The notes beneath the pieces were generated by a model, which saw only the letters and a program-made list of their open reading frames with translations, did not search any database and was not told the origin of the DNA. The translations under genes were made by a program, and so were the position numbers. Shown piece after piece: positions 4,593 through 37,862 of a stretch of 64,000 bases of DNA (position 1 is its first letter; each line of letters begins with the position of its first letter). The stretch comes from a virus. The stretch spans positions 1 to 64,000 of the IMG/VR virus record IMGVR_UViG_3300050821_003843; one strand, 5' to 3'.

Positions 4593-6017
4593 ATGATCAA
4601 ACCTTGTCAGAGTTGCGATATTCTAAATCTCGACTGTGCCTCATGCCAGCGATGTCTACCAAAATACTTGTGTTGTCAGGTCAACATTACTCCATCGTCT
4701 ACGGGGACAGGGAGTGATATTGATTGTTGTGGTTATGACATGCTGATGAAGTTCAGTTGTCCTGTCGGGGAAGCATTTGGAGGGGGTTGGGCAGGCAATG
4801 CAACTTGTTTGATCACGGGTAGACTGCCATTTTCCATTATCGCTGTACTTACTAAAGACGATAGTGGTTGCCACACTCAGGTCGGCATTTTTCTAAATGA
4901 CATCCTTCAGCCGTTACTCAAATTTGATGGAGTCCTGCCTGATGATATGACTTTCGATCTTACAGATAATCGAGGTAATCGGTATCAAGGGACGATTAGT
5001 CGCTATGGTCATATGGTCGCAAATCCACAAGCATGTGATATCTGTTCACCCTGTATTTGCGTGACTTGTATTCCGGGCATTCTCTCAGTAAATGTACAGG
5101 GCAATGCTCCTAACTACTTTCTACCCAATGGTGATCCTGAACCAGTCTTATGCCACTGTTCGAATACCGAGTTATTTCTGTTCGATTCCGTGTTACGGGA
5201 GTGGATTGGTCCACCAATACCATGTGCCAATGTCACGGTCTATACAACGATCAAACTTGCGCAAGCCCCTGACCAGTTTTGTGGATTTCATATCACGTTC
5301 CATACAAGCCCTACGGGAACCGGGACTGAACTCTACTCGTTTATCATCAGCTTTGAAGGAAGTACAAGTGATAGATGGCTTAGGGGGGTGCCGTGTGAGG
5401 GAGAATTTGGACTGACCAACGTTGGATTACCGAGCCTCAAACCATGCCCACCCAGTACGGGTACTGTCGGTGAAGACGGACAAGACGGTAATTGTCCTGA
5501 CCCCCCTCCAACATTATTCAATACGCAAGTTCAAGCGTCATTCTTTTTGCACCAAGGCACGCCCGAAGCTTGCAATGTTACCGTAGCAGCGTTTGCATGC
5601 GGGATGAGGAATATTGGTGAAACCCCACAAGTTGCCGTATGCAAGTGTTCTGACAATATTCCGACGACATTGAATTTGACCGTCTCATCAGACTGTCCGG
5701 GGATCAACGGTTATAACATACAACTTGTGTGGGATGGTTGTGGTTCATGGAGGGCAAAGGTTGTAACACCAGATCAGGGTATCGGGGGTGGTTCATCAAG
5801 AACAGTCTATTTCAACTTGAAGTTCAGTGAGGGAGTTGTTTCCTTTGAGTACCATGACGTGACAGGGATTGATCCAGTGTTTTTTGATCCTCCCACGATG
5901 TTCAGTTGTTCGCCGTTTATTCTCGTATTCAATGGTATCTCTACCATGAGAATCTTTGCCGATCCAGTGTGTAATCCTATCACGACCACATTTATCACGG
6001 TGACGATCACAGCATGA
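4593..6017 (+). CDS. Cys-rich putative tail fibre/adhesion protein
   Basis: A 474-residue protein that starts with a dense Cys cluster (CQSCDILNLDCASCQRC) and carries repeated Cys motifs (CDICSPCICVTCIPG, VCHC-like CKCSDN). Three Thr-Gly linkers (SSTGTGSD, SPTGTGTE, PSTGTVGED) separate beta-rich units. Two units share a layout: an N-terminal CxC element then a repeat ending in an Asn/Gly-rich strand, suggesting internal duplication. Likely a surface-exposed tail tip protein held by metal or disulfides. The gene's stop overlaps the next start (ATGA at 6014). Confidence 0.55.
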   Translation: MIKPCQSCDILNLDCASCQRCLPKYLCCQVNITPSSTGTGSDIDCCGYDMLMKFSCPVGEAFGGGWAGNATCLITGRLPFSIIAVLTKDDSGCHTQVGIFLNDILQPLLKFDGVLPDDMTFDLTDNRGNRYQGTISRYGHMVANPQACDICSPCICVTCIPGILSVNVQGNAPNYFLPNGDPEPVLCHCSNTELFLFDSVLREWIGPPIPCANVTVYTTIKLAQAPDQFCGFHITFHTSPTGTGTELYSFIISFEGSTSDRWLRGVPCEGEFGLTNVGLPSLKPCPPSTGTVGEDGQDGNCPDPPPTLFNTQVQASFFLHQGTPEACNVTVAAFACGMRNIGETPQVAVCKCSDNIPTTLNLTVSSDCPGINGYNIQLVWDGCGSWRAKVVTPDQGIGGGSSRTVYFNLKFSEGVVSFEYHDVTGIDPVFFDPPTMFSCSPFILVFNGISTMRIFADPVCNPITTTFITVTITA

Positions 6018-9840: not shown

Positions 9841-10633
9841 AGGAATTGTAGTTTGTGTTGGGTTTGATGATCTATTAGCAATCACACTACCAAGGAACAT
9901 GAGATTTCTATCTGAATGTGTTGTTGTGACCTCACCCGATGACATTAGAACTCAAGAGCTGGTAAAGAAAATACCAGATTGTCGATTACACATCACCGAT
10001 TCCTTCTATGCTAATGGAGCCAAGTTTAACAAGGGACTTGGAATGGAAGAAGGTTTTGATGTGTTAGGTCGTGATGGTTGGATTCAGATATGGGACGCTG
10101 ACATACTGTTCCCAGAGCATTTCAAACTACCCGACTTGAGTGTGGGTATGCTCTACGGGGCGCAACGGTTGGTACTCAATGACCCCAAACAATGGAAGCC
10201 AGAATTTAACTGGCTGAGTCTGAAACCCGCCAACGATGCGGAACGGGTGTCAGGTTACTTCCAGTTATTCAACGCCAGCGATTGGCACATCCTTCAAAAG
10301 CCGTGGTATGACGTATGCTTTACCCATGCTGGAGGTTGTGATGGTTATTTCGATTCACGCTGGCCACGTAACCGTACACAACGTCTGCCATTCAATGTAC
10401 TCCATTTGGGGCCAGTTGATGCGAATTGGTTCGGCAGAACACAAGCCAGAGTAGACGGACAGCCAATTGGAGGTAATCCAATGACATCACGTTTACTTAA
10501 TCAGCAGTATCGCGCTTATAAAGGTTGGAATACCTTACATCCACCAGTGAAGGAATTTCAAGAGGTGGTGGAAGTACCGGGTTATCAACCAAGTGGGTTT
10601 ATCCCACGTGCCTCGATCAGGAAAACACACTAA
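9821..10633 (+). CDS. GT-A type glycosyltransferase-like protein 1
   Basis: A 270-residue protein. The N-terminal half reads as a GT-A nucleotide-sugar fold: GIVVCVGFDDLLAITLPRNM, VVVTSPDD, then WIQIWDADILFP with the DAD metal-binding motif near residue 91. It shares this order with the proteins at 10633-11277 and 26147-26923, making a three-member family. It starts inside the 3' end of the methyltransferase gene and ends on the next gene's start codon, so the set is one operon. Acceptor and sugar unknown. Confidence 0.7.
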   Translation: MPHQTARGIVVCVGFDDLLAITLPRNMRFLSECVVVTSPDDIRTQELVKKIPDCRLHITDSFYANGAKFNKGLGMEEGFDVLGRDGWIQIWDADILFPEHFKLPDLSVGMLYGAQRLVLNDPKQWKPEFNWLSLKPANDAERVSGYFQLFNASDWHILQKPWYDVCFTHAGGCDGYFDSRWPRNRTQRLPFNVLHLGPVDANWFGRTQARVDGQPIGGNPMTSRLLNQQYRAYKGWNTLHPPVKEFQEVVEVPGYQPSGFIPRASIRKTH

Positions 10634-19957: not shown

Positions 19958-20211
19958 TGAGTGTCTATTACATTATAAAACCTTTGAAGTGGAAAAAGGT
20001 TAGCTTTGTCGAGTCTGAGTCTTCTACACCGCAGGGTATCTACCATGCTAGGTTACTAAGTAAGGAATTGGCAGACGCTTTTATTGTGTCTGAAAATGGA
20101 CGTGATGGCAGTACAATTGGACATACTGCAACACTAGAAGGTGCTAAACATATGTGTCAATTGGATTGGGAAAACTACTTAGTCACAAACTACTTGGAGC
20201 GTGTAGAATGA
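19957..20211 (+). CDS. Small protein, unknown function
   Basis: 84 residues, coupled to its neighbour by the ATGATG overlap. Predicted alpha-beta (MSVYYIIKPLKWKKVSFVES, then an Ala-Lys helix near the end). It overlaps the uracil-DNA glycosylase start by four bases, so expression is linked. No family recognised. Confidence 0.5.
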   Translation: MSVYYIIKPLKWKKVSFVESESSTPQGIYHARLLSKELADAFIVSENGRDGSTIGHTATLEGAKHMCQLDWENYLVTNYLERVE

Positions 20212-20747
20212 CCCCGTGGCAGCAACACGTAGAAAAATGGAGTACTTGTACTGATTGTGATGCGTGTCGAAATAGGAACAAGGTTGTTCTATTTCGTGGT
20301 TCAATTCCGAACTCTATCTTGTTTGTGGGGGAAGCCCCCGGACCAAGTGAAAATTCGATTGGTAAGGTGTTTTGCGGTCCGGCGGGCAAGCTACTCGATG
20401 AATTGATCGAAAAAGCGTTCGAAGGGCGGCAAAACGTAAAATACGGCCTTACAAACCTAGTAGCGTGCCTACCGCAAGGTGACGAAAGGCGTAAATTCGG
20501 TGAACCTACCGACGACTCGATAAAAGCCTGTCAACCCCGCTTGGTAGAATGTATTGAGTTGTGCCAGCCGAAAGTGATTATCGCGGTGGGTAAATTGGCG
20601 GAAAAGTGGTTGCCCAAAATCACCAAAGTCAAGATCGTACCAATCATCCACCCGGCAGCGATCTTAAGATGTGACTTGTCACAACGTGGATTAGCAGAAT
20701 TGAGAACAGTTACAACCCTACGTGATGTTGTGGAGAACCTTAAATGA
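20208..20747 (+). CDS. Family 4-type uracil-DNA glycosylase
   Basis: 179 residues. Cys ligands of an iron-sulfur cluster are visible: CTDCDAC near residue 14 and later VACLPQ and KACQPRL. The catalytic loop GEAPGPSE near residue 42 and IHPAAILR near residue 145 are the two signature motifs. It removes uracil (possibly 5-hydroxymethyluracil) from DNA. The phage seems to make 5-hydroxymethyl-dU DNA, so its substrate range matters: it may clear misincorporated uracil after the dUMP pool is raised. Start ATG 20208 overlaps the preceding gene. Confidence 0.85.
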   Translation: MTPWQQHVEKWSTCTDCDACRNRNKVVLFRGSIPNSILFVGEAPGPSENSIGKVFCGPAGKLLDELIEKAFEGRQNVKYGLTNLVACLPQGDERRKFGEPTDDSIKACQPRLVECIELCQPKVIIAVGKLAEKWLPKITKVKIVPIIHPAAILRCDLSQRGLAELRTVTTLRDVVENLK

Positions 20748-24039: not shown

Positions 24040-24135
24040 ATGGAATTGGTGATTGTCTTAGGTGTTGGTGGTTTGATTATTTGGAACGCTTTACAAGGAG
24101 GAAATCATGCTCGTGTTATCAAGGAGTCCCGGTGA
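24040..24135 (+). CDS. Very small membrane protein overlapping csrA
   Basis: 31 codons: MELVIVLGVGGLIIWNALQG then a short basic tail. The first 16 residues are a hydrophobic helix. It overlaps the csrA start by 29 bases in another frame, so its translation would run through the csrA ribosome binding site. May be a true gene or a leader for csrA. Confidence 0.4.
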   Translation: MELVIVLGVGGLIIWNALQGGNHARVIKESR

Positions 24136-24307
24136 ATCAATTCTTATTGGAGATAACATCAAAGTCACGGTCACGCAAGTTCGAGGAGACCATGTGCGTT
24201 TAGGAATCGAAGCACCTGAAAACGTGAAGATACTACGGAGTGAAGTACCTGACCGTGGTAAATTACCTGCCGAGCAGTGTGGTACAATTGAAGTAGGTAG
24301 CGAATAA
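24107..24307 (+). CDS. csrA: CsrA translational regulator
   Basis: 66 residues, the usual CsrA size. MLVLSRSPGESILIGDNIKV, then VRLGIEAP, is the CsrA core; Arg6 and the VRLGIEAP strand, which carries RNA-binding Arg, are present. CsrA dimers bind GGA motifs in mRNA leaders to block or stabilise translation. Here the leader has ACAAGGAGGAAATC directly before the ATG, matching the CsrA target core ACARGGA, so it should repress itself. A phage copy could reset host carbon metabolism or motility, or time phage translation. Start fixed by the perfect Shine-Dalgarno. Confidence 0.93.
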   Translation: MLVLSRSPGESILIGDNIKVTVTQVRGDHVRLGIEAPENVKILRSEVPDRGKLPAEQCGTIEVGSE

Positions 24308-24342
24308 CTAATCAGTTCAACAATTTAATGGAGCGAAATCGA

Positions 24343-25581
24343 ATGGCAGCGAAAGTGGCAGTCAGTGCGTTGGGTAAGAAACTTGGGGCAAAGCTGGATA
24401 CAGCCGTCAAGGCGCATCGTAATGATGAGACGAAGGTTGGAGGCAGGGGTAAACTCCCTGACTTCGACAACTACATTGCCCAATTGGTGGATATGAAGAT
24501 CGGGTACTATGAAAAGGGGGACAACAAAGGAGAACCATTCTTCTATGCGGCTGGAGCAATTCAGTTTCCGAAAAAGGTCAACGTCAATAAGACGACGGTA
24601 GTGGATGTTGAAGGTCTAAGAACTCAATTTGGACCAGAACCGTTGTGTGATACAAAAAACTCAAAGGGTGAAGTTGTTACACTGGATATGCACGTAGCGA
24701 ACGTGCTGAACTTGTTCCGTCTACTTGGCGTTGATACATCAGATGTTGGAGGGGACGATATAGAACCCACCATCGAAGTGTTGAAATCCCAAGCCCCCTA
24801 TTTCCAAGTGAGTGTGAGTACCAGTGCAGCAACTACACAGTATCCTAACCCCAAGACATGGGAAAATTGGGGTAAGGCTTGTGAGTACACACCAGATGGG
24901 GATACAGGCGTGGTGGATGGTACAGGTGAAGAATTAGGGGGTGAATCAACAGAAGAGGAAGTGCAGGAACAATCCAGTGATGTGCCATTCGGTGACGACA
25001 TTGATGACTTGGTTGGTACTGCTAATGGTGAGGATGAGGATGCAGCAGCAGACGCTCATGCGAAGTTGACCGAATTGGCGAAAGCAGCAGGCAAAACGCA
25101 GAAGGATATTGACAATAGTAAGAGTTGGGAACAGGTCGGTGAATGGTGCCGTGAGGGTCAAAATGAAGGTGAGGCAGACGATGCGGTTGACTATGATGCA
25201 TTAGGCGCAGCAGCCGATGGAGGAGACCAAGAAAGTGCCGATAAACTCGATGAATTGCGTCAAGCGGCTGATGTGAGTGATGATGATTTCAATTCGATGA
25301 GTTGGATCGAATTGGCTGCGCACTTGAGTACGCTTGAAGAACCAGCAGCAGAGGAAGAAACAAGTACAACGCCAGAAGTAGGACAAGTGTGGAAGTACAA
25401 GCCAATTGAACTGAATCCAAAAACTAAGAAGATGGAGAAATCAAAGGTAGCGAAAGAACATGAGGTACTGTCTGTTGTGGGGGAGAAGGTGACACTAAAG
25501 AACCTCGATACGAACAAGACACTACTGAATCCAGCCACGAAAAAACCACTACTGATCCCCTTCGAAGAACTCGAAGAGTGA
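24343..25581 (+). CDS. Putative single-stranded DNA-binding protein
   Basis: 412 residues starting at MAAKVAVSALGKKLG with GGAGCGAAATCGA upstream. About residues 35-150 (LPDFDNYIAQLVDMKIGYYE, then FFYAAGAIQFPKKVNV) look like the OB-fold core of phage SSB-like proteins. A very acidic region follows (about 205-330), with two Ala/Asp repeats (AAADAHAKLTELAKAAGKT and ADGGDQESADKLDELRQAAD) each ending in a NS(K/M)SW element. The C-terminus VGQVWKYKPIELNPKTKK is a small beta domain. Position after recombination genes supports DNA binding. Confidence 0.6.
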   Translation: MAAKVAVSALGKKLGAKLDTAVKAHRNDETKVGGRGKLPDFDNYIAQLVDMKIGYYEKGDNKGEPFFYAAGAIQFPKKVNVNKTTVVDVEGLRTQFGPEPLCDTKNSKGEVVTLDMHVANVLNLFRLLGVDTSDVGGDDIEPTIEVLKSQAPYFQVSVSTSAATTQYPNPKTWENWGKACEYTPDGDTGVVDGTGEELGGESTEEEVQEQSSDVPFGDDIDDLVGTANGEDEDAAADAHAKLTELAKAAGKTQKDIDNSKSWEQVGEWCREGQNEGEADDAVDYDALGAAADGGDQESADKLDELRQAADVSDDDFNSMSWIELAAHLSTLEEPAAEEETSTTPEVGQVWKYKPIELNPKTKKMEKSKVAKEHEVLSVVGEKVTLKNLDTNKTLLNPATKKPLLIPFEELEE

Positions 25582-25583
25582 TC

Positions 25584-25702
25584 AGGTGGTTACGAAATGA
25601 AGTCGACTAGGTGTGCGAGCGGGGGAACCCCACTTGGGAAACCTAGTGGCAAGTGTAGCGTCGCAATGACTGGTACAATAAACCGACAAAGCCAGTCCAC
25701 CT
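25584..25702 (+). ncRNA. Structured RNA A with pseudoknot
   Basis: No ORF. AGGTGG (25584-25589) pairs with CCACCT (25697-25702) as an outer stem. Inside: ACTAGGT (25606-25612) with ACCTAGT (25641-25647); CACTTG (25631-25636) with CAAGTG (25650-25655); TGCGA (25614-25618) with TCGCA (25661-25665); GGGG-GAA-CCCC; and GACTGG (25668-25673) with CCAGTC (25692-25697). Two of the helices cross the first, giving a pseudoknot. All helices except the GG/CC hairpin are perfect. Sits directly after the SSB-like gene. No known family fits. Confidence 0.55.
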
Positions 25703-25707
25703 AACCT

Positions 25708-25713
25708 TATAAT
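25708..25713 (+). promoter_or_regulatory. Perfect -10 box upstream of RNA B
   Basis: TATAAT at 25708-25713. The -35 region is weak (GACAAA at 25685-25690, 17 bases away). Transcription would begin near 25720 at the base of RNA B. Confidence 0.45.
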
Positions 25714-25804
25714 CCCTCTAACCGAGTTGCTAACTGCTGACCTAGTCTGATGGCATGTGGCAGGGTATTAAATGGACTTATTACAACTCGGTTAGGGGGT
25801 TTTG
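25714..25804 (+). ncRNA. RNA B: 16-bp stem with long loop and U-tract
   Basis: CCCTCTAACCGAGTTG (25714-25729) pairs over 16 positions with CAACTCGGTTAGGGGG (25784-25799), one G-U pair, and TTTT follows. The 54-base loop is itself structured (CTGC...GCAG). This is either a small RNA with its own terminator or an unusually large terminator ending the early operon. Confidence 0.6.
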
Positions 25805-25893: not shown

Positions 25894-25999
25894 GGAGGTA
25901 TGGCGAAACTGGTAGACGCGACAAGATAAGGATGGTTCAATTCCGTCTGTAACTTATTTTGTAATGGATTATTTGTAGGTTCGAATCCTACTGCCTCCA
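25894..25999 (+). tRNA. tRNA-Leu-like RNA with enlarged anticodon arm
   Basis: 106 nt, about 20 longer than a normal tRNA-Leu. Acceptor GGAGGTA/TGCCTCC, D-arm TGGCGAAACTGGTAGACGC as in bacterial tRNA-Leu, and T-arm GTAGG-TTCGAAT-CCTAC are canonical. A 12-base variable arm fits class II. The anticodon arm is not normal: ACAAGATAAG pairs over ten positions with CTTATTTTGT, and above it sits GATGG-TTCAATT-CCGTC, which has the sequence of a second T-arm. If about 25 bases were removed after AUAAGG, a normal Leu loop (anticodon AAG, G37) would remain; the apical loop alternatively offers CAA. No encoded CCA. Confidence 0.6.
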
Positions 26000-26000
26000 A

Positions 26001-26114
26001 TGAGACTGAATTCCACTTGAAGAGTACAGTGGTGAATTATCTAGTGCGTGGAAGGTCCATACGTTCTCAGCATGTCGTCTAGGTAATGCTGTAACCCACA
26101 GTCTCAATTTTCTT
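26001..26114 (+). ncRNA. RNA D: four-way-junction RNA with terminator tail
   Basis: TGAGACTG (26001-26008) pairs perfectly with CAGTCTCA (26099-26106), followed by ATTTTCTT. Inside are three hairpins: AATTC/GAATT (26009-26038) extended by CAC/GTG, CGTGGA with TCC-AT-ACG (26047-26063), and CAGCAT-12 nt-ATGCTG (26068-26091). The plan is a cloverleaf, but arm sizes do not fit a tRNA. It starts two bases after the tRNA-like gene. No known family recognised. Confidence 0.55.
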
Positions 26115-26146
26115 ACTCCAACTCATGTTTTAGAAAGTGACACAAG

Positions 26147-26923
26147 ATGCTGACAGACAGACTTGAAGGGGTGACGGTATGCGTTGAATATTCTGATTTC
26201 CTACGTGAAACACTGCCGTACAATATGCGGCACTTTGACCGTTATTTGGTCATCACGAAGGAAGGAGACCATGATACGATTGGATTGTGTCGTAAACTTG
26301 GGGTGGATTATCTCACGACTAACTTGATGACAAAGGGAGATCAGTTCGCTAAGTCACGAGGTATTGATTATGGAATCGCAAACCTGACTGGTGACGGTTG
26401 GGTCATTCATGTGGATGCTGACATCTGGCTACCTCCACAAACTCGACACCTGATTAGTCACGTTAGCTTAGACCCAAAATGTATCTACGGTATCGACCGG
26501 GTGAACTGTATTGGGTGGGACAACTGGAAAAAGTTTATCAGTATGGACCCTCACTTGGAAGAGGCACATCAGTTCTTATGGCATTGTCTGATTGTGCCAC
26601 CCCCATTTCCACTAGGTGGTCGATTATCCTTTCGTGAGTATGGCGGGTATGTGCCAATCGGGTTCTTTCAAATGTGGCATCATGGACAGTGCCCCAAGCG
26701 TTATCCACTAAATCATAGTGGCGCAGAACGAACTGACGTACTCCATGCGTTACAGTGGGAACCAGAAAATCGTAGACTACTCCCTGAACTCGTGGCGGTT
26801 CATTTGGAATCAGAAAAGTCAGAACTGGGTAAGAACTGGAATGGTCGTAAGTCGATGAAGTTTGGACCACACCATCATCAACATGAGAAACATCACGAAC
26901 ACCATCAGAAGTATTGTGATTAG
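26147..26923 (+). CDS. GT-A type glycosyltransferase-like protein 3
   Basis: 258 residues; ATG behind TTTTAGAAAGTGACACAAG. GVTVCVEYSDFLRETLPYNM, YLVITKEGDHDT and WVIHVDADIWLP (DAD near residue 88) give the same order as the two proteins at 9.8-11.3 kb, so all three are paralogues. The His-rich end (HHHQHEKHHEHHQKY) is unusual and could bind metal. It stands alone between two RNA clusters, with the third palindrome overlapping its stop codon. A sugar could be added to host or virion structures or to the hypermodified DNA base. Confidence 0.68.
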   Translation: MLTDRLEGVTVCVEYSDFLRETLPYNMRHFDRYLVITKEGDHDTIGLCRKLGVDYLTTNLMTKGDQFAKSRGIDYGIANLTGDGWVIHVDADIWLPPQTRHLISHVSLDPKCIYGIDRVNCIGWDNWKKFISMDPHLEEAHQFLWHCLIVPPPFPLGGRLSFREYGGYVPIGFFQMWHHGQCPKRYPLNHSGAERTDVLHALQWEPENRRLLPELVAVHLESEKSELGKNWNGRKSMKFGPHHHQHEKHHEHHQKYCD

Positions 26924-26941
26924 GTAATTCCCTATTACCTA
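26921..26941. promoter_or_regulatory. GGTAA palindrome 3
   Basis: TAGGTAA-TTCCCTA-TTACCTA, 7-base arms, beginning on the stop codon of the glycosyltransferase gene. Same GGTAA/TTACC core as sites at 16834 and 26946. Confidence 0.58.
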
Positions 26942-26945
26942 AATT

Positions 26946-26966
26946 GAGGTAATTGTCCTTTACCTT
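26946..26966. promoter_or_regulatory. GGTAA palindrome 4
   Basis: GAGGTAA-TTGTCCT-TTACCTT, five bases after palindrome 3 and with the same 7-base gap between arms. The pair stands before the second RNA cluster. Confidence 0.55.
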
Positions 26967-26970
26967 TTGT

Positions 26971-26989
26971 AGTTACTGACTGAGTAACT
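26971..26989 (+). repeat. Hairpin before tRNA-like 2
   Basis: AGTTACT-GACTG-AGTAACT, a perfect 7-bp inverted repeat nine bases before the second tRNA-like element, in the same relative place as the hairpin at 25866-25890. Confidence 0.5.
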
Positions 26990-26997
26990 TTGATATT

Positions 26998-27100
26998 CGC
27001 TCCGTGGCGGAAGTAGACGCACTCGACAGACTGAGACAGATGAGGAAGTGGTACAGATTCCACACGATCTGTAAATTGCTGGAAGATCCAGCCGGAGCGA
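26998..27100 (+). tRNA. tRNA-like RNA 2, Leu-type D-arm, degenerate
   Basis: 103 nt. Acceptor CGCTCCG/CGGAGCG is perfect. TGGCGGAAGTAGACGC is a Leu-type D-arm that lacks the conserved G18G19. The T-stem position has GCTGG/CCAGC with only a 5-base loop (AAGAT), missing TTCRA. The middle forms ACAGAT/ATCTGT around a GTGG/CCAC hairpin, so the anticodon arm is enlarged as in element 1. Losing both partners of the D-T loop contact together suggests a tRNA-derived RNA that no longer works in translation. Confidence 0.42.
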
Positions 27101-27111
27101 TTTTGAAATTG

Positions 27112-27217
27112 ACGTTTTAGATTAGCAGTAGTGGTCTACCGGGCGATATCCAGTCCACGTTCAACTCGTGGCATGCAGTCGGATAACTGGGGTTCGATTC
27201 CCACTATTCTAAAACGT
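27112..27217 (+). tRNA. tRNA-like RNA 3 with extended acceptor-type stem
   Basis: ACGTTTTAGA (27112-27121) pairs with TCTAAAACGT (27208-27217) over ten perfect positions, longer than a 7-bp acceptor. GTAG-TGGT-CTAC resembles a D-arm and GGGG-TTCGATT-CCC the T-arm. TATCC/GGATA occupies the anticodon stem position, enclosing 29 bases with CCACG-TTCAACT-CGTGG, again a T-arm-like hairpin. Excising the insert would leave a 74-nt tRNA-sized body. Anticodon not assignable. Confidence 0.42.
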
Positions 27218-30320: not shown

Positions 30321-30628
30321 AGATTAGATTGGTATGCCCCGAAGGGTGGAAACAGTGTGGGTTCCAACGTCTTGTGTGTGATGCGGTTGAATGTAGTTTG
30401 AACGATAAGGTACGAATTGCCGACACACTCAAACAATGGATCAATGATGGAGTGATGGAAGCTGAATCGAACCCGAGTACTGGCTTTGCGTTTGTGGATG
30501 GAAATAACTTGTTTGTGGAGTCAGGTGAAGGGACGACGTTACATGACTTCGCTGACTCGTTACAAGATGCTTCGAAATGTGTGGTAGAATACAAGGATGC
30601 AGATGATGAAGGGTGGCAAGTATGTTAG
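30317..30628 (+). CDS. Protein of unknown function
   Basis: 103 residues, starting MKIRLVCPEGWKQCGFQRLV. Alternating strands and an acidic C-terminal half. It overlaps the first gene of the DNA hypermodification cluster by seven bases, so it may belong to it. No family recognised. Confidence 0.5.
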   Translation: MKIRLVCPEGWKQCGFQRLVCDAVECSLNDKVRIADTLKQWINDGVMEAESNPSTGFAFVDGNNLFVESGEGTTLHDFADSLQDASKCVVEYKDADDEGWQVC

Positions 30629-31482
30629 TTGAAGAAGTTAAGAAGTTGACACCGTTACAAAGACTCTGTTTTTGGATAACCGAAAGGGAATCAATCAGGT
30701 TGAAAAAAGAAGCTGGTGATCCTAAACCGTGGAGCACGAACGAAGTATTACAGAATTTCCGCTTCTGCAATGTGATTAGGAGTGATGACAAGGTTTCACA
30801 GTGGCTCATGAACAACTGGTACACAAAGGAAAACATTGAGAAGGGGAATTTGGTAACGGCTTGTGTACTGGCACGACAGATCAACAATATCGAAACGATG
30901 ACGGATATTGGCTACCCTCATCCATGGAACCCGAAACGAGTCGAAGCGATTTGTAAAAAACGTGTAGCCGATGGGAAAAAGGTATTCAACGGCGCTTACA
31001 TCATCACGGGTGGGTTAGGTGGTGGTACGAAGGTGGAACAGGTGATTCACCTTGTGGTTGATCCAATCCATAAAGCGAAGGTAGCTCCAGTCTATGAGTC
31101 ACTTGAGGCAACACATACTCGATTGATGAATTATGTCGGTATGGGGTCATTTATTGCGGGGCAAGTGGTGGCAGACATTAAATTAGCTCTAAACCATGAA
31201 AACTATTGGCTTGATAGAAACACATGGGCTCCTATGGGTCCAGGTTCAAAACGTGGAATGAATCGACTTCACGAGCGCAACCCAGACGAGAAAAAGAATC
31301 AAGCCAAGTTCACAAAAGAACTTCAAGAACTTAGATCACAACTAAGGAAGTTGCTACCAGCAGATCTTTACTTGCGCATGGAAGCGATGGACCTTCAAAA
31401 CTGCCTATGTGAATTTTCGAAGATGGAGCGCACGTTGTTCGATAGCAAACGACCCAAACAACTCTATCCGGGGGTGAAATGA
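30622..31482 (+). CDS. Thymine pyrophosphorylase-family protein (clade 3 / HMUDK helical domain type)
   Basis: 286 residues. The N-terminal pattern LCFWITERESIRLKKEAG, KPWSTNEVLQNFRFCNV and RSDDKVSQWL is the signature of the helical family predicted as alpha-glutamyl/putrescinyl thymine pyrophosphorylase clade 3, which also forms the helical domain of some 5-hmdU DNA kinases. These act on hydroxymethyl-dU in DNA. A P-loop kinase follows with ATGA overlap, so the two may work as a split version of that two-domain kinase, or as kinase plus transferase. The C-terminal part is charged and coiled-coil-like. Confidence 0.72.
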   Translation: MLVEEVKKLTPLQRLCFWITERESIRLKKEAGDPKPWSTNEVLQNFRFCNVIRSDDKVSQWLMNNWYTKENIEKGNLVTACVLARQINNIETMTDIGYPHPWNPKRVEAICKKRVADGKKVFNGAYIITGGLGGGTKVEQVIHLVVDPIHKAKVAPVYESLEATHTRLMNYVGMGSFIAGQVVADIKLALNHENYWLDRNTWAPMGPGSKRGMNRLHERNPDEKKNQAKFTKELQELRSQLRKLLPADLYLRMEAMDLQNCLCEFSKMERTLFDSKRPKQLYPGVK

Positions 31483-32060
31483 TTATTTCACTCCGGGGGA
31501 CAAATGGATCAGGCAAGTCCACTGTCGTGCGTAAACTCATGGAACGCTACAACGCACAACCTGAGAGCCTTGATTCAAAGGGCAGACCGATGAACTATGT
31601 AATGACGTTGGGTAATGGATCATCACTGTACGTTGTAGGCTGCTATCAGAATGCTTGCGGTGGTTGCGACGGTATTCACCCCTTTACTGAAATTTGGCCA
31701 CGTGTAACGCGATTGGCAGCGTTGGGACACGTGTTATTCGAGGGGCTGGCGTTTACCAGTGGTTACGGCAACATCGGCAAGGATAGTGAAGTGTATGGTG
31801 ATGATTTTGTTTTTGCGTTTATGGATACCCCACCAGAAGTCTGTATCCAACGGGTACTTGCTCGACGTGAAGCAAAGGGAACTGAAAAACCGTACAGCCC
31901 AAAAAACCTGATGAGTAAGCTAAGTGCGGCGCGTAGCAGCGAACGTAAGATAAAAGAAGTGTACGGTAGGCGAGTTGTTTCAATCAATCACCGTGCAGCA
32001 GTTCAGCAGATTTTAGGGATCTACTATAATGCAAAACGAATTGAATGCATTGGAGTTTAG
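31479..32060 (+). CDS. P-loop kinase, probable 5-hmdU DNA kinase
   Basis: 193 residues. Walker A LRGTNGSGKSTVV is near residue 5-17; FAFMDTPPEVCIQRVLARR is the lid/thymidylate-kinase-like region. In hypermodifying phages such a kinase phosphorylates 5-hydroxymethyluracil in DNA to make it a leaving group. Its place between two pyrophosphorylase-family genes supports this over a nucleotide kinase role. Overlaps the next gene by 32 bases. Confidence 0.72.
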   Translation: MIISLRGTNGSGKSTVVRKLMERYNAQPESLDSKGRPMNYVMTLGNGSSLYVVGCYQNACGGCDGIHPFTEIWPRVTRLAALGHVLFEGLAFTSGYGNIGKDSEVYGDDFVFAFMDTPPEVCIQRVLARREAKGTEKPYSPKNLMSKLSAARSSERKIKEVYGRRVVSINHRAAVQQILGIYYNAKRIECIGV

Positions 32061-32823
32061 TCGACAACTAATTACATTGAATGACTTAGATCCAACGTAT
32101 GTTGTCTTGTGGTATGCGCAACTAGAGCCTGAACTAAAAGCAAAATTTCTCCTAGCTTACTTGTGCTTTTATCATTTTGGAACGGCATCATGGATCTGTT
32201 CACAAAATAACTATTGGCAAGGGATGATGGATGCGGCAGCAACGAAAGAGCGACCTAGAGCAAGTGAGCGTCGTCATTTTCGAGGGGGGCAAGCAACTCG
32301 GGCAATTCAGGACTTAATTGATTTAAAACTGACTCCATTACGCATCGTTCAACACTGGTCGAATGGTAAAATTAAACCAAGCGCTTTGGAGGTAATACAG
32401 CAAGTTAAAAACCATCGTGGGTTTGGTGATTGGGTGAGTTTCAAAGCGGCTGACTTATTAGAACGATTGGCAATAGTCCAAGTTCAATTCACACCGGATG
32501 ATGTATTCAACATGTACGAATCGCCACGACTAGGCGCAGAATTGATTGCTGCACAACATGACGTTCCAATGGAACAGGCTTGTCAATTTGCCTACAACCA
32601 TTTGACAGCAGGATTAAAGGATCTACTTGCTCCGCCACGTTGCGAACGACGATTGAACATCCAAGAGATTGAAACCTGCTTGTGCAAGTACCACAGTTAC
32701 CACAAAGGTCATTATAAATTAGGACAAGATGTTATCGAGGTGCGCCATGCAATTGAGTTGTATGGTAGCTTGCCGATGAGTAAACGTCTATTTAATGCTG
32801 GTAAGAGTGGAGGGCTGTGGTGA
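32029..32823 (+). CDS. Thymine pyrophosphorylase-family protein (clade 2 type)
   Basis: 264 residues. LNDLDPTYVVLWYAQLE, then FLLAYLCFYHFGTASWIC, and a central RHFRGGQATRAIQDL match the clade 2 group of alpha-glutamyl/putrescinyl thymine pyrophosphorylases, DNA glycosylase-like helical proteins. They displace the pyrophosphate from activated 5-hmdU with an amine or amino acid. GFGDWVSFKAADLLERL resembles the helix-hairpin-helix part. The acceptor amine cannot be read from sequence. Confidence 0.72.
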   Translation: MQNELNALEFSRQLITLNDLDPTYVVLWYAQLEPELKAKFLLAYLCFYHFGTASWICSQNNYWQGMMDAAATKERPRASERRHFRGGQATRAIQDLIDLKLTPLRIVQHWSNGKIKPSALEVIQQVKNHRGFGDWVSFKAADLLERLAIVQVQFTPDDVFNMYESPRLGAELIAAQHDVPMEQACQFAYNHLTAGLKDLLAPPRCERRLNIQEIETCLCKYHSYHKGHYKLGQDVIEVRHAIELYGSLPMSKRLFNAGKSGGLW

Positions 32824-33662
32824 AAGACGTAATTGTCATTGGAGCGGGTATTATTGGCGCTACGATTGCTAAGTCACTACAGACGCAGGGAAGAGACGTA
32901 TTGGTGATTGATAGTAATGAGTCACTGGCGGGGACAAAACCCTCTGGGGGCCATTTAAAGCCATCATGGTTTGGAGGGATGTCGAAAACTGAGTATGAAC
33001 CTGCAATGGAACTACTCAATGAGACTTGGGGATTGATTGAAGAACAGTTTACTATCAAGGCGTTGGGAATCAGTACGGGCGTCACTTCAACGGTTTATCG
33101 AGTTGACACGGATAAGGTAATTGAGTTTCCAAGGGTTGTAGGAAGAGTGTGTTCATTACAGTTTTTGGATAACTACCCAAATGTTGTATGGAACAATGGT
33201 GAAAGTCAGGAACGTTGCCGCTTGTTGATTGTCGCGGCTGGAGTGTGGTGTGGAACGTTACTTCCACAACTTGCTTTGAAAATACAGCGTAAGCAGGGAA
33301 TATCGTTCCGATATAAAGGTCAGTTGAAAGAACCATTTATCAATCCGTGGGCACCATACAAGCAGATTGTTGCGCATCAACAATCGTCGAATGAGATTTG
33401 GATAGGCGATGGGTCTACGATACTACAACCAAACTGGACAGCTAAAAGAGAACTTGAGTGTCGAACACGATGTGAGAATAACTTACAGAAGATGCAGTAC
33501 ATTCGTTCTATTACTGGGTTGCGACCCTACTGTGAAAGTGGGAAAGACCCTTGTCTATTAAAACAAGTTTTCAACCGTGTATGGGTCGCGACAGGTGCGG
33601 GTAAGTCTGGGACCATTGCAGCGGGTTGGGTTGCTAGAAAGATCATTGATGCCACGAGCTAA
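32817..33662 (+). CDS. FAD-dependent oxidoreductase (DAO-like)
   Basis: 281 residues from GTG 32817. VIVIGAGIIGATIAKSL is the dinucleotide-binding GxGxxG motif, VLVIDSNE the ribose-binding acid, and VWVATGAGKSGTIAAGWVAR the C-terminal FAD contact. The DAO type oxidises amino groups. In phages with amino-acid-linked thymines a related FAD enzyme processes the attached glycine; the same role is likely here because it sits between a pyrophosphorylase and an amidoligase gene. Confidence 0.75.
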   Translation: MVKDVIVIGAGIIGATIAKSLQTQGRDVLVIDSNESLAGTKPSGGHLKPSWFGGMSKTEYEPAMELLNETWGLIEEQFTIKALGISTGVTSTVYRVDTDKVIEFPRVVGRVCSLQFLDNYPNVVWNNGESQERCRLLIVAAGVWCGTLLPQLALKIQRKQGISFRYKGQLKEPFINPWAPYKQIVAHQQSSNEIWIGDGSTILQPNWTAKRELECRTRCENNLQKMQYIRSITGLRPYCESGKDPCLLKQVFNRVWVATGAGKSGTIAAGWVARKIIDATS

Positions 33663-34524
33663 AATCACTTCAGTCAATTGGACCTATGGGTGTGAGTTAG
33701 AACTAGGTGACGTGAGCAGAGACATAGTAATTCCTCTACAATATGGTAAATGGGAGTATGCTGAGACGGATATTGTCAACATACTTCCTCCATACCGGCA
33801 TGTTGCTTGTGACCCATTGGGGTTGGAACCACCAATGGGGGGTGAGATCAACACTGTTCCAACAATTGGTTGGAAATCACAAATCAAATTGATTGAAGAA
33901 TTGTTGAAATGGTTAATCACTGAGGGACAATCACCAACAACAAATTGTATATCACACACACACGTACATATCCACATACCGAGACTAGTACGTGACATTG
34001 AACTACTCAAAAAATTGACTAGGTATATAATGGAGAATCAAGTTAAATCTGTTGATAGTTGCCTTCAATTTGATTCTAGGCAAATGTCTGCAAAATTAGG
34101 GGCGGGATATTTGAAACTCGATTGTGGAAGACTGATGCCTGATTGGATGGGTGAGAATATTATCAACATGGCAAACTCGTTTGATGATTTTATCCGTATC
34201 CAGTGCTGTGGTAAAGATGGTGTCAGTCGTGGTAGACCGTTTCGATATGCGATCAATACATACTGCCTAAAGCACACACAGACAATTGAATTCCGACTAT
34301 TTCGTAGCTCACTTGACTTACTAGAGCTCTCTGACTGCTTTCGATTCGTGGAACAATTCATGTTGGCGGCATTGAATGATGGACCTTCAGTGGATGAGTT
34401 ATTGAGGGTAGGTTATAAGTTTCCTCCGTTTCGCTACTCGCTACCAGAAGTCGAAGGCTGGCTAAAAACGAAGTGGGATAAAAGTAGGGGGGAGAAGAAA
34501 CGTGAATTCATTCCAGTTACGTGA
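33649..34524 (+). CDS. Amidoligase-family (ATP-grasp-like) enzyme
   Basis: 291 residues, ATG 33649 behind GAAAGATCATTG. WTYGCELELG, THVHIHIPRL and TIEFRLFRSS are the three signature strands of the phage/bacterial amidoligase (COOH-NH2 ligase) family, including the metal-binding Glu and His. Such enzymes were predicted to join amino acids or amines to modified thymine. It overlaps the FAD gene by 14 bases and the GNAT gene by 23 bases. Confidence 0.75.
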   Translation: MPRAKITSVNWTYGCELELGDVSRDIVIPLQYGKWEYAETDIVNILPPYRHVACDPLGLEPPMGGEINTVPTIGWKSQIKLIEELLKWLITEGQSPTTNCISHTHVHIHIPRLVRDIELLKKLTRYIMENQVKSVDSCLQFDSRQMSAKLGAGYLKLDCGRLMPDWMGENIINMANSFDDFIRIQCCGKDGVSRGRPFRYAINTYCLKHTQTIEFRLFRSSLDLLELSDCFRFVEQFMLAALNDGPSVDELLRVGYKFPPFRYSLPEVEGWLKTKWDKSRGEKKREFIPVT

Positions 34525-35032
34525 AACAACTCGCGGAGAGTTTGTGACTGCTACGGGGTTGCATCCAGTTGCGGCTGACTCATTTGCTAAAACATTTCGC
34601 GCTAAAGCCGATGCATTTGACCTATGGCCGTGCCTAGGCGTATGGAATGACAGGCAGCAACTGATGGGGGCGATTATTTGGACGATTACACAACGGCAAC
34701 CGCATATCGCAAATTTACAACTACTTCACACGTTCGCCGAGTATCGTCGACAGGGAGTGGCGTCAAAACTGTGTGTGGAGTGTTTAAATCGCGTGAGAGG
34801 GCTTGGGGCTGAGTATTTGAGGGTGAGTAGTGAGCCTGAAAGCGTGGCGTTTTACAAGAGCCTAGGCATTCAATTTTTAGGTAGGCAAAAATCAGGTTGC
34901 TTACTGGCGATGGGTCGATTAACGGGTACTGATGGCGATTTCAGACAACTTAATTACTCATTAGAACACGAGCCGATAAGAAAAGCAGTGTTCCGAAAGG
35001 GTAAAGGAGGTTGTGTTGAAGTGTTTAAATAA
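34502..35032 (+). CDS. GNAT N-acetyltransferase
   Basis: 176 residues from GTG 34502 behind GGGGGGAGAAGAAAC. IANLQLLHTFAEYRRQGVAS is the acetyl-CoA binding motif A (Q/R-x-x-G-x-A) and ESVAFYKSLGIQFLGR motif B. As the last gene of the hypermodification cluster it probably acetylates the amine on the modified base. Followed by a terminator-like hairpin and convergent genes. Confidence 0.75.
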   Translation: MNSFQLRETTRGEFVTATGLHPVAADSFAKTFRAKADAFDLWPCLGVWNDRQQLMGAIIWTITQRQPHIANLQLLHTFAEYRRQGVASKLCVECLNRVRGLGAEYLRVSSEPESVAFYKSLGIQFLGRQKSGCLLAMGRLTGTDGDFRQLNYSLEHEPIRKAVFRKGKGGCVEVFK

Positions 35033-35035
35033 AAA

Positions 35036-35060
35036 TAGCCCACCGGGTTAGGGCGGGCTA
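35036..35060 (-). terminator. Terminator between convergent genes
   Basis: TAGCCCACC pairs with GGCGGGCTA with one mismatch. On the reverse strand TTTTTATTT follows, so it ends the reverse transcript of 35089-35785; on the forward strand there is no T-run. Confidence 0.7.
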
Positions 35061-35088
35061 ATGAAGTCAACTTATCAGACCAATAATG

Positions 35089-35505
35089 TTATTGCTTGAC
35101 CCACACATTTCCCCGCTTACCTTCGGTTGATCCGTAAGCAACTCGACCGTCTTCCACCATCAATTTCAAATGATTGACGACAGGACCACCCTCTTTTCCA
35201 CCGGGTGTACGACCTAGTCCGACAACGATTTCACGTGAGGAGTAATCGTGACCCTTCTTCATGAACTTGAGGATTTGATTTTGGAGTTCGGTTGTGTCGG
35301 TTCGTGTTGCTCGTGGGGCTGATTCCTTTTTCACTAATTTCGCAGCAGCCTTTTTCGTAGCCACTTTTTTCACGGGGGCAGTTGACTTGGCGGCAACCTT
35401 TTTCACTGCCTCCTTTTTAACAGGGGCAGGTGATGCAGCAGCATTCACGGGAGCACCGGTGACCACGCCATCAATCACAGCGTTTCCAACAACTTTCTTA
35501 GCCAT
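35089..35505 (-). CDS. Histone H1-like tail plus winged-helix-like protein
   Basis: 138 residues. Residues about 25-70 are Lys-Ala-Pro repeats (APVKKEAVKKVAAKSTAPVK, TKKAAAKLVKKES) like histone H1 or bacterial HC1 tails. The C-terminal 65 residues (LQNQILKFMKKGHDYSSREI, then VVNHLKLMVEDGRVAYGS) have a winged-helix pattern. Probably a DNA-binding or nucleoid-like protein of the phage. The ATG is preceded by GAAAGATGACGAATT. Confidence 0.68.
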   Translation of the reverse strand: MAKKVVGNAVIDGVVTGAPVNAAASPAPVKKEAVKKVAAKSTAPVKKVATKKAAAKLVKKESAPRATRTDTTELQNQILKFMKKGHDYSSREIVVGLGRTPGGKEGGPVVNHLKLMVEDGRVAYGSTEGKRGNVWVKQ

Positions 35506-35596
35506 AATTCGTCATCTTTCAAACTAGAACTTGAGGGTATCTGCCATCATCAGACCACGTAGATAAATTCGTGGTGACGCCCGGAGGCGTTTCGGC

Positions 35597-35785
35597 TTAG
35601 ACACATACAGGGTAAGCAAGGGCAGAAGATTTGTGATGACCATTGATTAACGATTGGAGTTGTTCAACCGTCGCATCATCAACTTTTTCGTTCGAGATCA
35701 GGCGAGTTACCTGAACGATGTTTTCGCTGGCGTCAATTCGGACTTGGTAGACTCGACCATTCAATTGGATTTTGTAAGTTTTCAT
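35597..35785 (-). CDS. Small protein, unknown function
   Basis: 62 residues, start MKTYKIQLNGRVYQVRID chosen behind AAGGAACAAATC. A beta hairpin followed by a short helix (DDATVEQLQSLINGHHK). Promoter at 35841-35869. No family recognised. Confidence 0.5.
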   Translation of the reverse strand: MKTYKIQLNGRVYQVRIDASENIVQVTRLISNEKVDDATVEQLQSLINGHHKSSALAYPVCV

Positions 35786-35840
35786 GATTTGTTCCTTCGT
35801 TTCGTGTGTGTCATTTCGTTTCGTTGAACCCGACAACAGA

Positions 35841-35869
35841 AGTATCGTCGAGGAGTGGAAGTTTGTAAA
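35841..35869 (-). promoter_or_regulatory. Sigma70-like promoter, reverse strand
   Basis: Reverse strand TTTACA (35864-35869), 17-base spacer, GATACT (35841-35846), 56 bases before the small gene's start. Lacks the palindrome seen in the 13-14 kb promoters. Confidence 0.6.
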
Positions 35870-35939
35870 GGAAATTCTGTGAACTTTTCTACGGAATTTT
35901 CAAAATAGTTCTGAAATCCCTATTTTAGAGGAGTTTTCT

Positions 35940-36557
35940 ATGAGAGAAATTGTTCGGATTCTCGTTGACATGGACGGTCTGTTGACGAATTTTGATGACG
36001 CGGCGTGCCTCGCACATGGCTTTCCGATCCAAATGTTACACGATTACAGGCAGCCGGGTGAATGGTCGCTCATCCCTATTTTCGCTCGAATGCGGGGCGA
36101 AATCATGAGTGTGGAGGAATTTTGGAGGGTGATTGGCGAACATGGTGAACTATTTTGGACCTCGTTGGCGCAAACCGAATGGATGGACCCATTGCTCCAA
36201 TTGGTTAAAGAATTCAACGGTAGTGATTGGCATGTGGTAACAGCCCCAAGCCATTGCCCCACGTCGTATAGTGGAAAGGTGAAGTGGTTGAAGTCACGAC
36301 TTGGCAAGGAATTTGATCGGGTACTGGCAACCCCGCACAAGGAAATTTTAGCCATGCCGGGTGTTATACTGATTGATGACAACGAACAAAACATACAACG
36401 GTTTAAACTGGCCGGTGGTAGTGGGATCTTGTTCCCAATAATGGGGAACTGTCTACATCACTTGGCAAATAATCCAGTGGCTTACGTGCGTGAACAGATA
36501 GAAGAAAGGCTGTATAAGGATGAATCTGAAAGTAGGGCAGATAGTCACGTGGCTTGA
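35940..36557 (+). CDS. 5'(3')-deoxyribonucleotidase (HAD family)
   Basis: 205 residues. VDMDGLLTNFD is HAD motif I with both catalytic Asp; HVVTAPSHCPTS is motif II and LIDDNEQNIQRF motif IV. The NT5C group removes phosphate from deoxynucleotides such as dTMP and dUMP. Next to a thymidylate-synthase-like gene it should drain dTMP so that the modified nucleotide replaces it. AGAGGAGTTTTCT precedes the ATG. Confidence 0.75.
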   Translation: MREIVRILVDMDGLLTNFDDAACLAHGFPIQMLHDYRQPGEWSLIPIFARMRGEIMSVEEFWRVIGEHGELFWTSLAQTEWMDPLLQLVKEFNGSDWHVVTAPSHCPTSYSGKVKWLKSRLGKEFDRVLATPHKEILAMPGVILIDDNEQNIQRFKLAGGSGILFPIMGNCLHHLANNPVAYVREQIEERLYKDESESRADSHVA

Positions 36558-36735
36558 ACCAATTCGCACACAGATTGAAAACCGTGGGAATATGTTGGGA
36601 CCACGGATGATAGATCAGGAATTACACCACAGTGGTGAAGTGATTTCGATTGAGGGTGATTCGTGTACGGTACGCGATTCATGGGGTTTGATTTGGCAAC
36701 TGAAAATTGAAAAGGACAAGTTGACATGCATCTAA
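36520..36735 (+). CDS. Small protein, unknown function
   Basis: 71 residues; overlaps the nucleotidase gene by 38 bases and the next gene by 10. KVGQIVTWLEPIRTQIE and SCTVRDSWGLIWQLKIEKDK look like a small SH3-like barrel. No family recognised. Confidence 0.5.
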   Translation: MNLKVGQIVTWLEPIRTQIENRGNMLGPRMIDQELHHSGEVISIEGDSCTVRDSWGLIWQLKIEKDKLTCI

Positions 36736-37862
36736 AGTATCCAAACGTAAATGACGCATTCCACGAATTGGTCTACGGAATTCATAATGGACACATTCCA
36801 ACCGTGTCATCACCTAGTAGAGTTGGTGACGTGTTACAAATCCAAGAACCTGTGATTGTCACATATGAAAAGCCGCTAGAGAGGGTGCTGTTCAACCCTG
36901 CACGCGATGTTAATCCATTCCTGAACTTGTATGAAACACTTTGGATGTTGGCTGGCCGTAATGACATTGCACCATTGGAATATTACTCTAAGAACTATGG
37001 TCAGTTCGTGGATGATGGTGATGGAATGCAGAATGCAGCATATGGATATAGGTGGAGACATGCATTACATAAAGAAATGGGAGATCCATGTAGTAAGTGT
37101 GGTGAGAGCGTTCCTTGTCACTGCGACGCACCATATTGTGTAGATCAACTCAAAGTTATTATCGACCATTTACGAAAGATACCAACGTCAAGACGTGTCG
37201 TGCTCCAAATGTGGAACGTAGAAGATGACTTACTCAAGATTGAAACAACAAAAGATGTTGCGTGCAATCTATGTGCGTTGTTCTCGTTGAGACAAGCTAG
37301 TCGAAAAGAAATAGAAGAAGAGGCACATAACGGCTACTATCTCGATATGACGGTCTACAATCGCTCGAATGACTTGACTCTTGGACTTTTGGGGGCGAAC
37401 GTTGTTCACTTCTCATTTCTACAAGAATACATGGCGAATTGCTTAGGCGTTCAGGTGGGGGTGTATAATCAAGTGAGTAACAATCTCCATTGTTACACAT
37501 CACGTTGGGAACCAGATAAGTGGTTAGCAGAAGGTGTGTGTGATGAGTACAGAAACCAACAGTGGAATCATGTACCGTTAGTTAAGGACCAACAGACGTT
37601 TGATAGTGAGTGTCGTAATTTTGTGGCTATGAACTTTTGCGGTGGTGTAATCCACGATAACCGTTGGGAAGAACCATTTTTGCGAACCGTGGCGCAACCG
37701 ATGATGAATGCCTTCCATTATCACAAACATCGCAAATACTGGGAAGCGTTGAATCACGGTGTTGCGAACATTGCTGACGGCGCTTGGCAATTGTGCGCAT
37801 ACAGATGGATTGAGAAACGACGACTGGCTTGGGAAGCGAAAAAGGAGACGAATGATGAGTAG
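36726..37862 (+). CDS. Thymidylate synthase family, probable dUMP hydroxymethylase
   Basis: 378 residues. VVLQMWNVEDDL, then DVACNLCALFSLR holding the catalytic Cys, and VYNRSNDLTLGLLGANVVHFS match ThyA-type enzymes; the Asn in LGANVV corresponds to the residue that selects dUMP rather than dCMP. The residue after the catalytic Cys is Asn in place of the ThyA His, as expected if water replaces hydride transfer. FNPARDVNPFLNLYETLWML is the N-terminal core. A Cys cluster insert (CSKCGESVPCHC) is unusual. Product: 5-hydroxymethyl-dUMP. Confidence 0.8.
   Translation: MHLKYPNVNDAFHELVYGIHNGHIPTVSSPSRVGDVLQIQEPVIVTYEKPLERVLFNPARDVNPFLNLYETLWMLAGRNDIAPLEYYSKNYGQFVDDGDGMQNAAYGYRWRHALHKEMGDPCSKCGESVPCHCDAPYCVDQLKVIIDHLRKIPTSRRVVLQMWNVEDDLLKIETTKDVACNLCALFSLRQASRKEIEEEAHNGYYLDMTVYNRSNDLTLGLLGANVVHFSFLQEYMANCLGVQVGVYNQVSNNLHCYTSRWEPDKWLAEGVCDEYRNQQWNHVPLVKDQQTFDSECRNFVAMNFCGGVIHDNRWEEPFLRTVAQPMMNAFHYHKHRKYWEALNHGVANIADGAWQLCAYRWIEKRRLAWEAKKETNDE

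Follow-up and report, generated by a model that had tools for sequence, protein, structure and literature searches.

Probable tRNA mimics with replaced anticodon domains in the replication region of a tailed phage and its relatives

Results

The 64,000-nt window analyzed here is part of a 72,917-base IMG/VR virus record. The source virus is a tailed phage; its DNA polymerase is of the PolA type, and it also encodes a portal, a terminase, and a tape measure. Between an open reading frame at 24328-25581 and the DNA polymerase gene, which starts at 27764, lie three tRNA-like elements on the plus strand, embedded in a series of further structured segments (25584-25802 and 26001-26107). Default ARAGORN finds neither tRNA nor tmRNA in the window, and a scan for consensus promoters and terminators gave nothing above shuffles. 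A csrA gene at 24107-24307 encodes a phage CsrA (PF02599, 4e-24), with homologs at the equivalent position in many relatives; it points to a bacterial host, which would lack archaeal splicing enzymes. Host searches with the DNA polymerase against GTDB genomes returned only unrelated PolA proteins with 22-27% identity, and those with the terminase and portal gave matches all below 31%. A CsrA sponge of the CsrB/RsmZ type, suggested by the adjoining csrA and by GGA in some D loops, was rejected, as GGA sites are not enriched (151 observed versus 149 expected in 17 regions). The window also carries a thymidine hypermodification module at 30613-37862, with 5-hmdU kinase domains (PF18723, PF18748), an amino acid:DNA transferase (PF18724), an FAD oxidoreductase, a GNAT protein, and a thymidylate synthase homolog, together with a uracil-DNA glycosylase superfamily homolog at 20154-20747 (PF03167, 1.5e-23). 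The phage probably carries 5-hmdU-derived bases.

Element 1 (25894-25999) resembles a tRNA-Leu whose anticodon arm has been replaced. It is called a tRNA by cmscan (RF00005, 40 bits versus a gathering threshold of 29) and scores 33 in our own scanner, which requires an acceptor, a D arm, and a T arm and leaves the middle free; in shuffles of the related phage loci described below, at most one match scored 31 or more and none reached 32. Its 7-bp acceptor, GGAGGTA/TGCCTCC (25894-25900/25992-25998), is followed by a Leu-type D arm, TGGCGAAACTGGTAGACGC (25901-25919), and the 3' portion comprises a canonical terminal T arm, GTAGG-TTCGAAT-CCTAC (25975-25991), with A73 at 25999. The short variable region (25963-25974) forms a TAA-TGGA-TTA mini-hairpin ending in U48, and A15-U48 fits the tRNA Levitt pair. 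The Leu identity elements A73, A14, GG, and the T loop are present. In place of the anticodon arm (25921-25962) stands a 10-bp stem, ACAAGATAAG/CTTATTTTGT, capped by a T-arm-like hairpin with a 5-nt bulge. This cap, GATGG-TTCAATT-CCGTC at 25931-25947, has a perfect T-arm shape, and the middle segment folds more stably than its shuffles (p=0.023).

The other two elements resemble tRNAs less completely. Element 2 (26998-27100) has a 7-bp acceptor and a D arm, both of the Leu type, its middle contains a helix, ACAGAT/ATCTGT, enclosing GTGG/CCAC, and the T position (27078-27092) is occupied by GCTGG-AAGAT-CCAGC, a hairpin without a T loop; it escapes cmscan at the gathering threshold. Element 3 (27118-27212) is closed by an acceptor-like stem of about 11 bp, and a stem, TATCC/GGATA (27147-27151/27181-27185), encloses 29 nt containing a T-arm-like hairpin, CCACG-TTCAACT-CGTGG (27155-27171). 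Its terminal T arm, TGGGG-TTCGATT-CCCAC, is paired at only 3/5 positions, and its best Rfam match is below threshold (tRNA-Sec, 21.7 bits versus a gathering threshold of 47). An initial sequence-only reading had described an acceptor, a D arm, and a terminal T arm in RNAs starting at 25894, 26998, and 27112. That description holds in full for element 1, for the acceptor and D arm but not the T arm of element 2, and for the closing stem of element 3, with its imperfect T arm. All three are more stable than shuffles by RNAfold (z -2.5, -3.6, and -3.4 for elements 1, 2, and 3), and in none did we find a 5-bp anticodon stem with a 7-nt loop and U33.

The same reading had noted a second T-arm-like hairpin within the anticodon arm of elements 1 and 3, and both hairpins are there. 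A census of 5-bp TTCRANN hairpins on both strands of the whole window found three, all inside these two elements, versus about 1.9 per window in shuffles. Close homologs of the window elements were absent from INPHARED and from the 37 related loci. The inserted hairpin is missing from every relative; it is particular to elements 1 and 3 and not conserved. What the relatives keep is the tRNA top half with a replaced anticodon domain.

Neighboring segments of the same strand are also structured. At 25584-25700, an RNA with an AGGTGG/CCACCT closing stem and internal and 3' hairpins (RNAfold z -2.5) has a tRNA-like topology without a T loop. It is followed at 25714-25802 by an inverted repeat forming a 16-bp stem, CCCTCTAACCGAGTTG/CAACTCGGTTAGGGGG, and then TTTT (z -3.75). 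An RNA at 26001-26107, starting 1 nt past element 1, has a 7-8 bp closing stem, GAGACTG/CAGTCTC, and a weak signal (z -1.3).

Are these tRNAs with tiny introns, excised by some splicing activity? As had been proposed, removal of 25 nt from element 1 formally restores a Leu arm, though one that would require A34 (anticodon AAG). Such a single-removal test is passed by 14% of shuffles of the segment when any anticodon is allowed, which places the result at chance level, and by 0.6% when only Leu anticodons count. No other element of the related phages passes, and in the wider Leu-like set described below, among the matches listed, removal yields an arm with a Leu anticodon in 1/93, element 1 itself, versus 0.6% by chance. 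Element 1 contains no bulge-helix-bulge in its anticodon stem, only an uninterrupted 10-bp stem and then a hairpin with a single 5-nt bulge; the 6-nt loops found in some relatives cannot be introns, and csrA argues for a host without the archaeal enzymes. The test does have power: in another viral family, F2, 17 of the 25 members listed (68%) regain a canonical anticodon arm when a single segment is taken out, versus 1.2% of shuffles. For the elements studied here, we regard introns as highly improbable.

The members of family F2 (L446, L422, L357, L402, L412, L381, L364, and others from IMG/VR) are viral tRNAs for Asn, Arg, Gln, and Thr in which the 5' strand of the anticodon stem is interrupted by an insert of 39-50 nt, consisting of a covarying hairpin and then UNACAGCAA. 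The insert resembles an intron, of a kind seemingly not yet described in tRNAs. At L468 ~378-710, which is the cultured Bacillus phage vB_BcoS-136 (NC_071049.1, ~55.32-55.65 kb) and is unannotated there, an F2-type motif, GTGTCTTG/AAAGACAC-TAACAGCAA, flanks an apparent circularly permuted tRNA, in which the 3' half ...CATCGTA precedes the 5' half TACGGTG....

Using DNA polymerase searches, we gathered a clade of 37 related phage loci, with polymerases 30-47% identical. Anticodon arms are non-canonical in 18/25 clade tRNA-like genes versus 0/41 in control phages (Fisher p=7e-11). The 25 comprise these 18, six ordinary tRNAs found by the scanner, and one found by ARAGORN (L023 3690, anticodon CTA); the controls are the approximately 41 tRNAs, all with ordinary anticodon arms, that the same scanner detects in 799 kb of other PolA phages. 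The aberrant loops measure 6 nt (L011, L035, L051), 12 nt (L045), 13 nt (L044, twice), 18 nt (L028), and 21 nt (L053), and the other aberrant arms carry inserts of 30 to ~120 nt. When elements from different phages are compared by BLAST, nothing aligns beyond the T arm and the 3' acceptor. Could these be decaying phage tRNA genes? The missing T loop of element 2, the poor terminal T arm of element 3, and single mismatches in a few acceptors are what decay would produce. However, pairing is complete in most acceptors and T arms, and damage is confined to the anticodon domain, with nothing comparable among the 41 control tRNAs. In 20 clade top halves, 97% of pair cells hold standard pairs and 10/12 pairs show compensatory changes, a conservation that is partly by construction because only paired top halves could be picked up by the scanner and the IMG/VR patterns. 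We therefore consider decay very unlikely.

Of the 18 aberrant clade elements, 14 lie in the sense orientation in one interval, between a homolog of the 24328-25581 open reading frame and the DNA polymerase. This suggests a second reading, in which the top halves punctuate a polycistronic replication transcript as RNase P/Z cut sites while the decoding parts drift; the sense orientation of ~80% of the wider Leu-like set relative to neighboring genes, among the matches listed, agrees with it. Punctuation leaves unexplained the conservation of acceptor sequence, namely, [N]G[CT][CT]C[CT]G in 10/20 clade rows and AGTCAGG in 42/93 Leu-like elements among the matches listed, as well as the presence of two to three elements in one gap. 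It is, in our estimation, unlikely.

Several other RNAs occur in these loci. Ordinary tRNAs of the amber suppressor type (anticodon CTA; L023 3690-3764 and L053 8268-8339) adjoin aberrant elements in two clade phages. A conserved pseudoknot-like RNA, GAGAA...AGGTT...TTCTC...AACCT, sits between two tRNA-like elements in L030 (7540-7595) and L044 (4740-4795) and has no further matches among IMG/VR contigs. A compact D-armless tRNA-like RNA of 68-73 nt, ordered as acceptor, GTGGTAR, covarying hairpin, TGATAGGGCAWC, and T arm, is found in two phages of the clade and in a third phage whose polymerase is unrelated (L019 5043-5110, L029 7646-7718, and L212 ~9870-9950 on the minus strand). In L021, a structured spacer, GGYGCCCTCAGGGCCTCC...GGAGGTACAAGGGCRCC, occurs twice between ordinary tRNAs (~5623-5686 and 5763-5817).

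How widespread are such RNAs? A pattern scan of IMG/VR for a Leu-type D arm separated from a T arm by 48-78 bases yielded at least 120 stretches, giving at least 107 Leu-like RNAs with paired acceptor and T arm and middles of 45-75 nt; 93 non-redundant elements among the matches listed were analyzed. Element 1 belongs to this set: its D arm is of the Leu type, both its acceptor and its T arm are paired, its middle falls within 45-76 nt, and it has U48. Bacteria carry ordinary tRNA-Leu genes, and the pattern has no match in 333 bacterial genomes (4 + 301 + 28). Those of the Leu-like RNAs that Rfam detects are named only as generic tRNA, and none is annotated. Among the matches listed, U48, the last base of the middle, is T in 92/93, A73 is kept in 70/93 (75%), and Leu anticodon loops in the middles show no excess (15% versus 12%). 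A separate family of class-I-topped tRNA-like RNAs with a common middle, TCATGGTGAAGG-CC..., occurs in L430, L454, L378, and L458.

The one feature that recurs in the middles of the Leu-like set is a pseudoknot, present in many of them, in which a hairpin loop pairs with a strand that stops exactly 2 nt short of the T arm. A 6-bp partner occurs at that register in 37% of the set among the matches listed versus 9% of shuffles, and distant registers are at background. This register test is stronger evidence than an automated two-sequence count of pseudoknot-stem covariation, which is weakly above slid controls (six compensated pairs versus one to four). Pseudoknots at the same register are present in clade members L044 (L044b) and L035 (L035a), with p=0.013 and 0.016; none was found in window elements 1 and 2.

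Apart from this register, the middles have no common motif. In the largest group among the matches listed, with the AGTCAGG acceptor, top halves are 94% identical and middles are at chance (0.495 versus 0.487 shuffled), and L318, L330, and L044 each hold a pair of elements whose tops are the same but whose middles differ. Both observations would fit a natural tRNA scaffold whose top half protects and processes the RNA and whose hypervariable middle is the working part, binding protein or carrying antisense cargo. Antisense cargo was rejected, since the longest matches between middles and neighboring phage sequence, sense or antisense, equal those of shuffles, and the pseudoknot register is the sole motif that the middles share. 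We judge the scaffold reading rather unlikely.

Cultured phages carry these RNAs as well. Bacteroides phage BS-TP2 (PQ571275.1, 19550-19656) has an identical, unannotated copy of one element, lying in a gap of 153 nt that is flanked by a DUF2303 gene and a NinG gene. Another such RNA, with the pairings GCGGGT/ACCCGC and GTTGTTA/TAACAAC, occurs in Weissella phage PWc (KY744240.1) and is likewise unannotated; the pseudoknot is supported at p=0.007 in each phage. In a weaker candidate in Sulfitobacter phage phiCB2047-B, no pseudoknot was detected. Standard annotation misses such RNAs, and their numbers are therefore probably underestimated.

A role as aminoacyl donors for thymidine hypermodification enzymes was also considered, the amino acid:DNA transferase being encoded at 32029-32823. 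The module lies 3-9 kb downstream of the elements, and 5-hmdU kinase homologs occur in most of the clade. Yet co-occurrence is not strict: L030 and L051 have aberrant tRNA-like elements with no HMUDK/ADDT homolog found nearby, and no such gene is annotated around the BS-TP2 element. The donor hypothesis was rejected and seems to us barely credible.

Discussion

What purpose do phage tRNAs serve? The question is an old one, and the main answers have been codon supply and the replacement of cleaved tRNAs. For a large set of phage tRNA genes that retain the top half but cannot decode, some other answer would be called for, one that involves host factors recognizing the acceptor and elbow. The occurrence of related RNAs in many unrelated phages suggests that phages widely carry tRNA look-alikes unable to decode.

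Our tentative preference, held at somewhat less than even confidence, is that the elements are non-decoding tRNA mimics in a tailed-phage replication operon that sequester host factors in the manner of a decoy or sponge. Its two parts differ in strength. The mimic structure is well supported: the comparisons demonstrate RNAs that are phage-specific, non-decoding, and free of an intron signature and that have a conserved top half. The decoy role is one that we infer. Selection would maintain the acceptor stem, the D/T-loop elbow, and usually A73, with the anticodon domain exchanged for closed structures that are unrelated to it; many phages have a pseudoknot there. RNase P would cut the RNA, and CCA would be added as on a tRNA. 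Since the mimics do not decode and offer no anticodon loop to cut, they may act through the acceptor and elbow, sequestering host proteins that bind there, including tRNA-targeting defense proteins. The sequence-only reading had raised a decoy for anticodon nucleases and, alternatively, a structural or regulatory tRNA-derived RNA. In the narrow sense the former is unlikely because the anticodon loop is absent; the broader direction, a decoy or a structural or regulatory RNA, is the one favored by the evidence.

Might the Leu-type RNAs be charged? Leu identity in Escherichia coli resides in A73, A14, and D/T-loop contacts and not in the anticodon; editing requires the anticodon arm, but leucylation can do without it (PMC9976931). 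The Leu types lack only the part that LeuRS can spare in aminoacylation and keep the A73, A14, and D/T-loop contacts that the bacterial enzyme needs, so they may be leucylated. With A73 in only 70/93 among the matches listed, charging by LeuRS cannot be general. As to possible targets, some known defense systems cleave anticodon loops and are evaded by phage tRNAs (PMC10264068), and the tail-cutting Cas12a3 engages the acceptor and T arm (PMC12851939). Such descriptions establish that targets of the acceptor/elbow type exist; none has been linked to these RNAs.

Some observations weigh against the preferred reading. Elements 1 and 2 lack the pseudoknot, and the T-loop loss in element 2 is as expected of a decaying copy. 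Placement in the operon equally fits a role in RNA processing. More broadly, phages of several bacterial phyla may share an undescribed class of tRNA mimics, with an aminoacylatable Leu top half and a hypervariable, often pseudoknotted domain, that serves as a counter-defense decoy or sponge; we offer this generalization as a possibility of about one in three. Since cultured BS-TP2 and PWc carry such RNAs, expression, charging, and deletion phenotypes are directly testable.

How do these RNAs compare with known systems? We found no report of such RNAs in the open-access literature, and among Rfam families only RF00005 tRNA scores above its gathering threshold, its model treating the replaced domain as an insertion. 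The Bacillus cereus pseudo-tRNA tRNA-Other is likewise tRNA-shaped and reportedly inactive in translation but is a chromosomal gene at an island border and not a phage-wide class (PMC3399842). The tRNA-like domain of tmRNA is also an upper-half tRNA mimic in which other RNA stands in place of the anticodon, with pseudoknots nearby (PMC3985003). In contrast to tmRNA, the mimics described here retain an intact D arm, have no G3-U70 (element 1 has A3-U70 plus a D stem), and are not recognized as tmRNA by ARAGORN; they are 68-176 nt long, confined to phages, and often Leu-like. The phage tRNAs that evade anticodon nucleases likewise come from phage genes and have altered anticodon loops (PMC10264068). 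Those tRNAs decode and carry point changes, whereas the mimics lack a usable anticodon loop.
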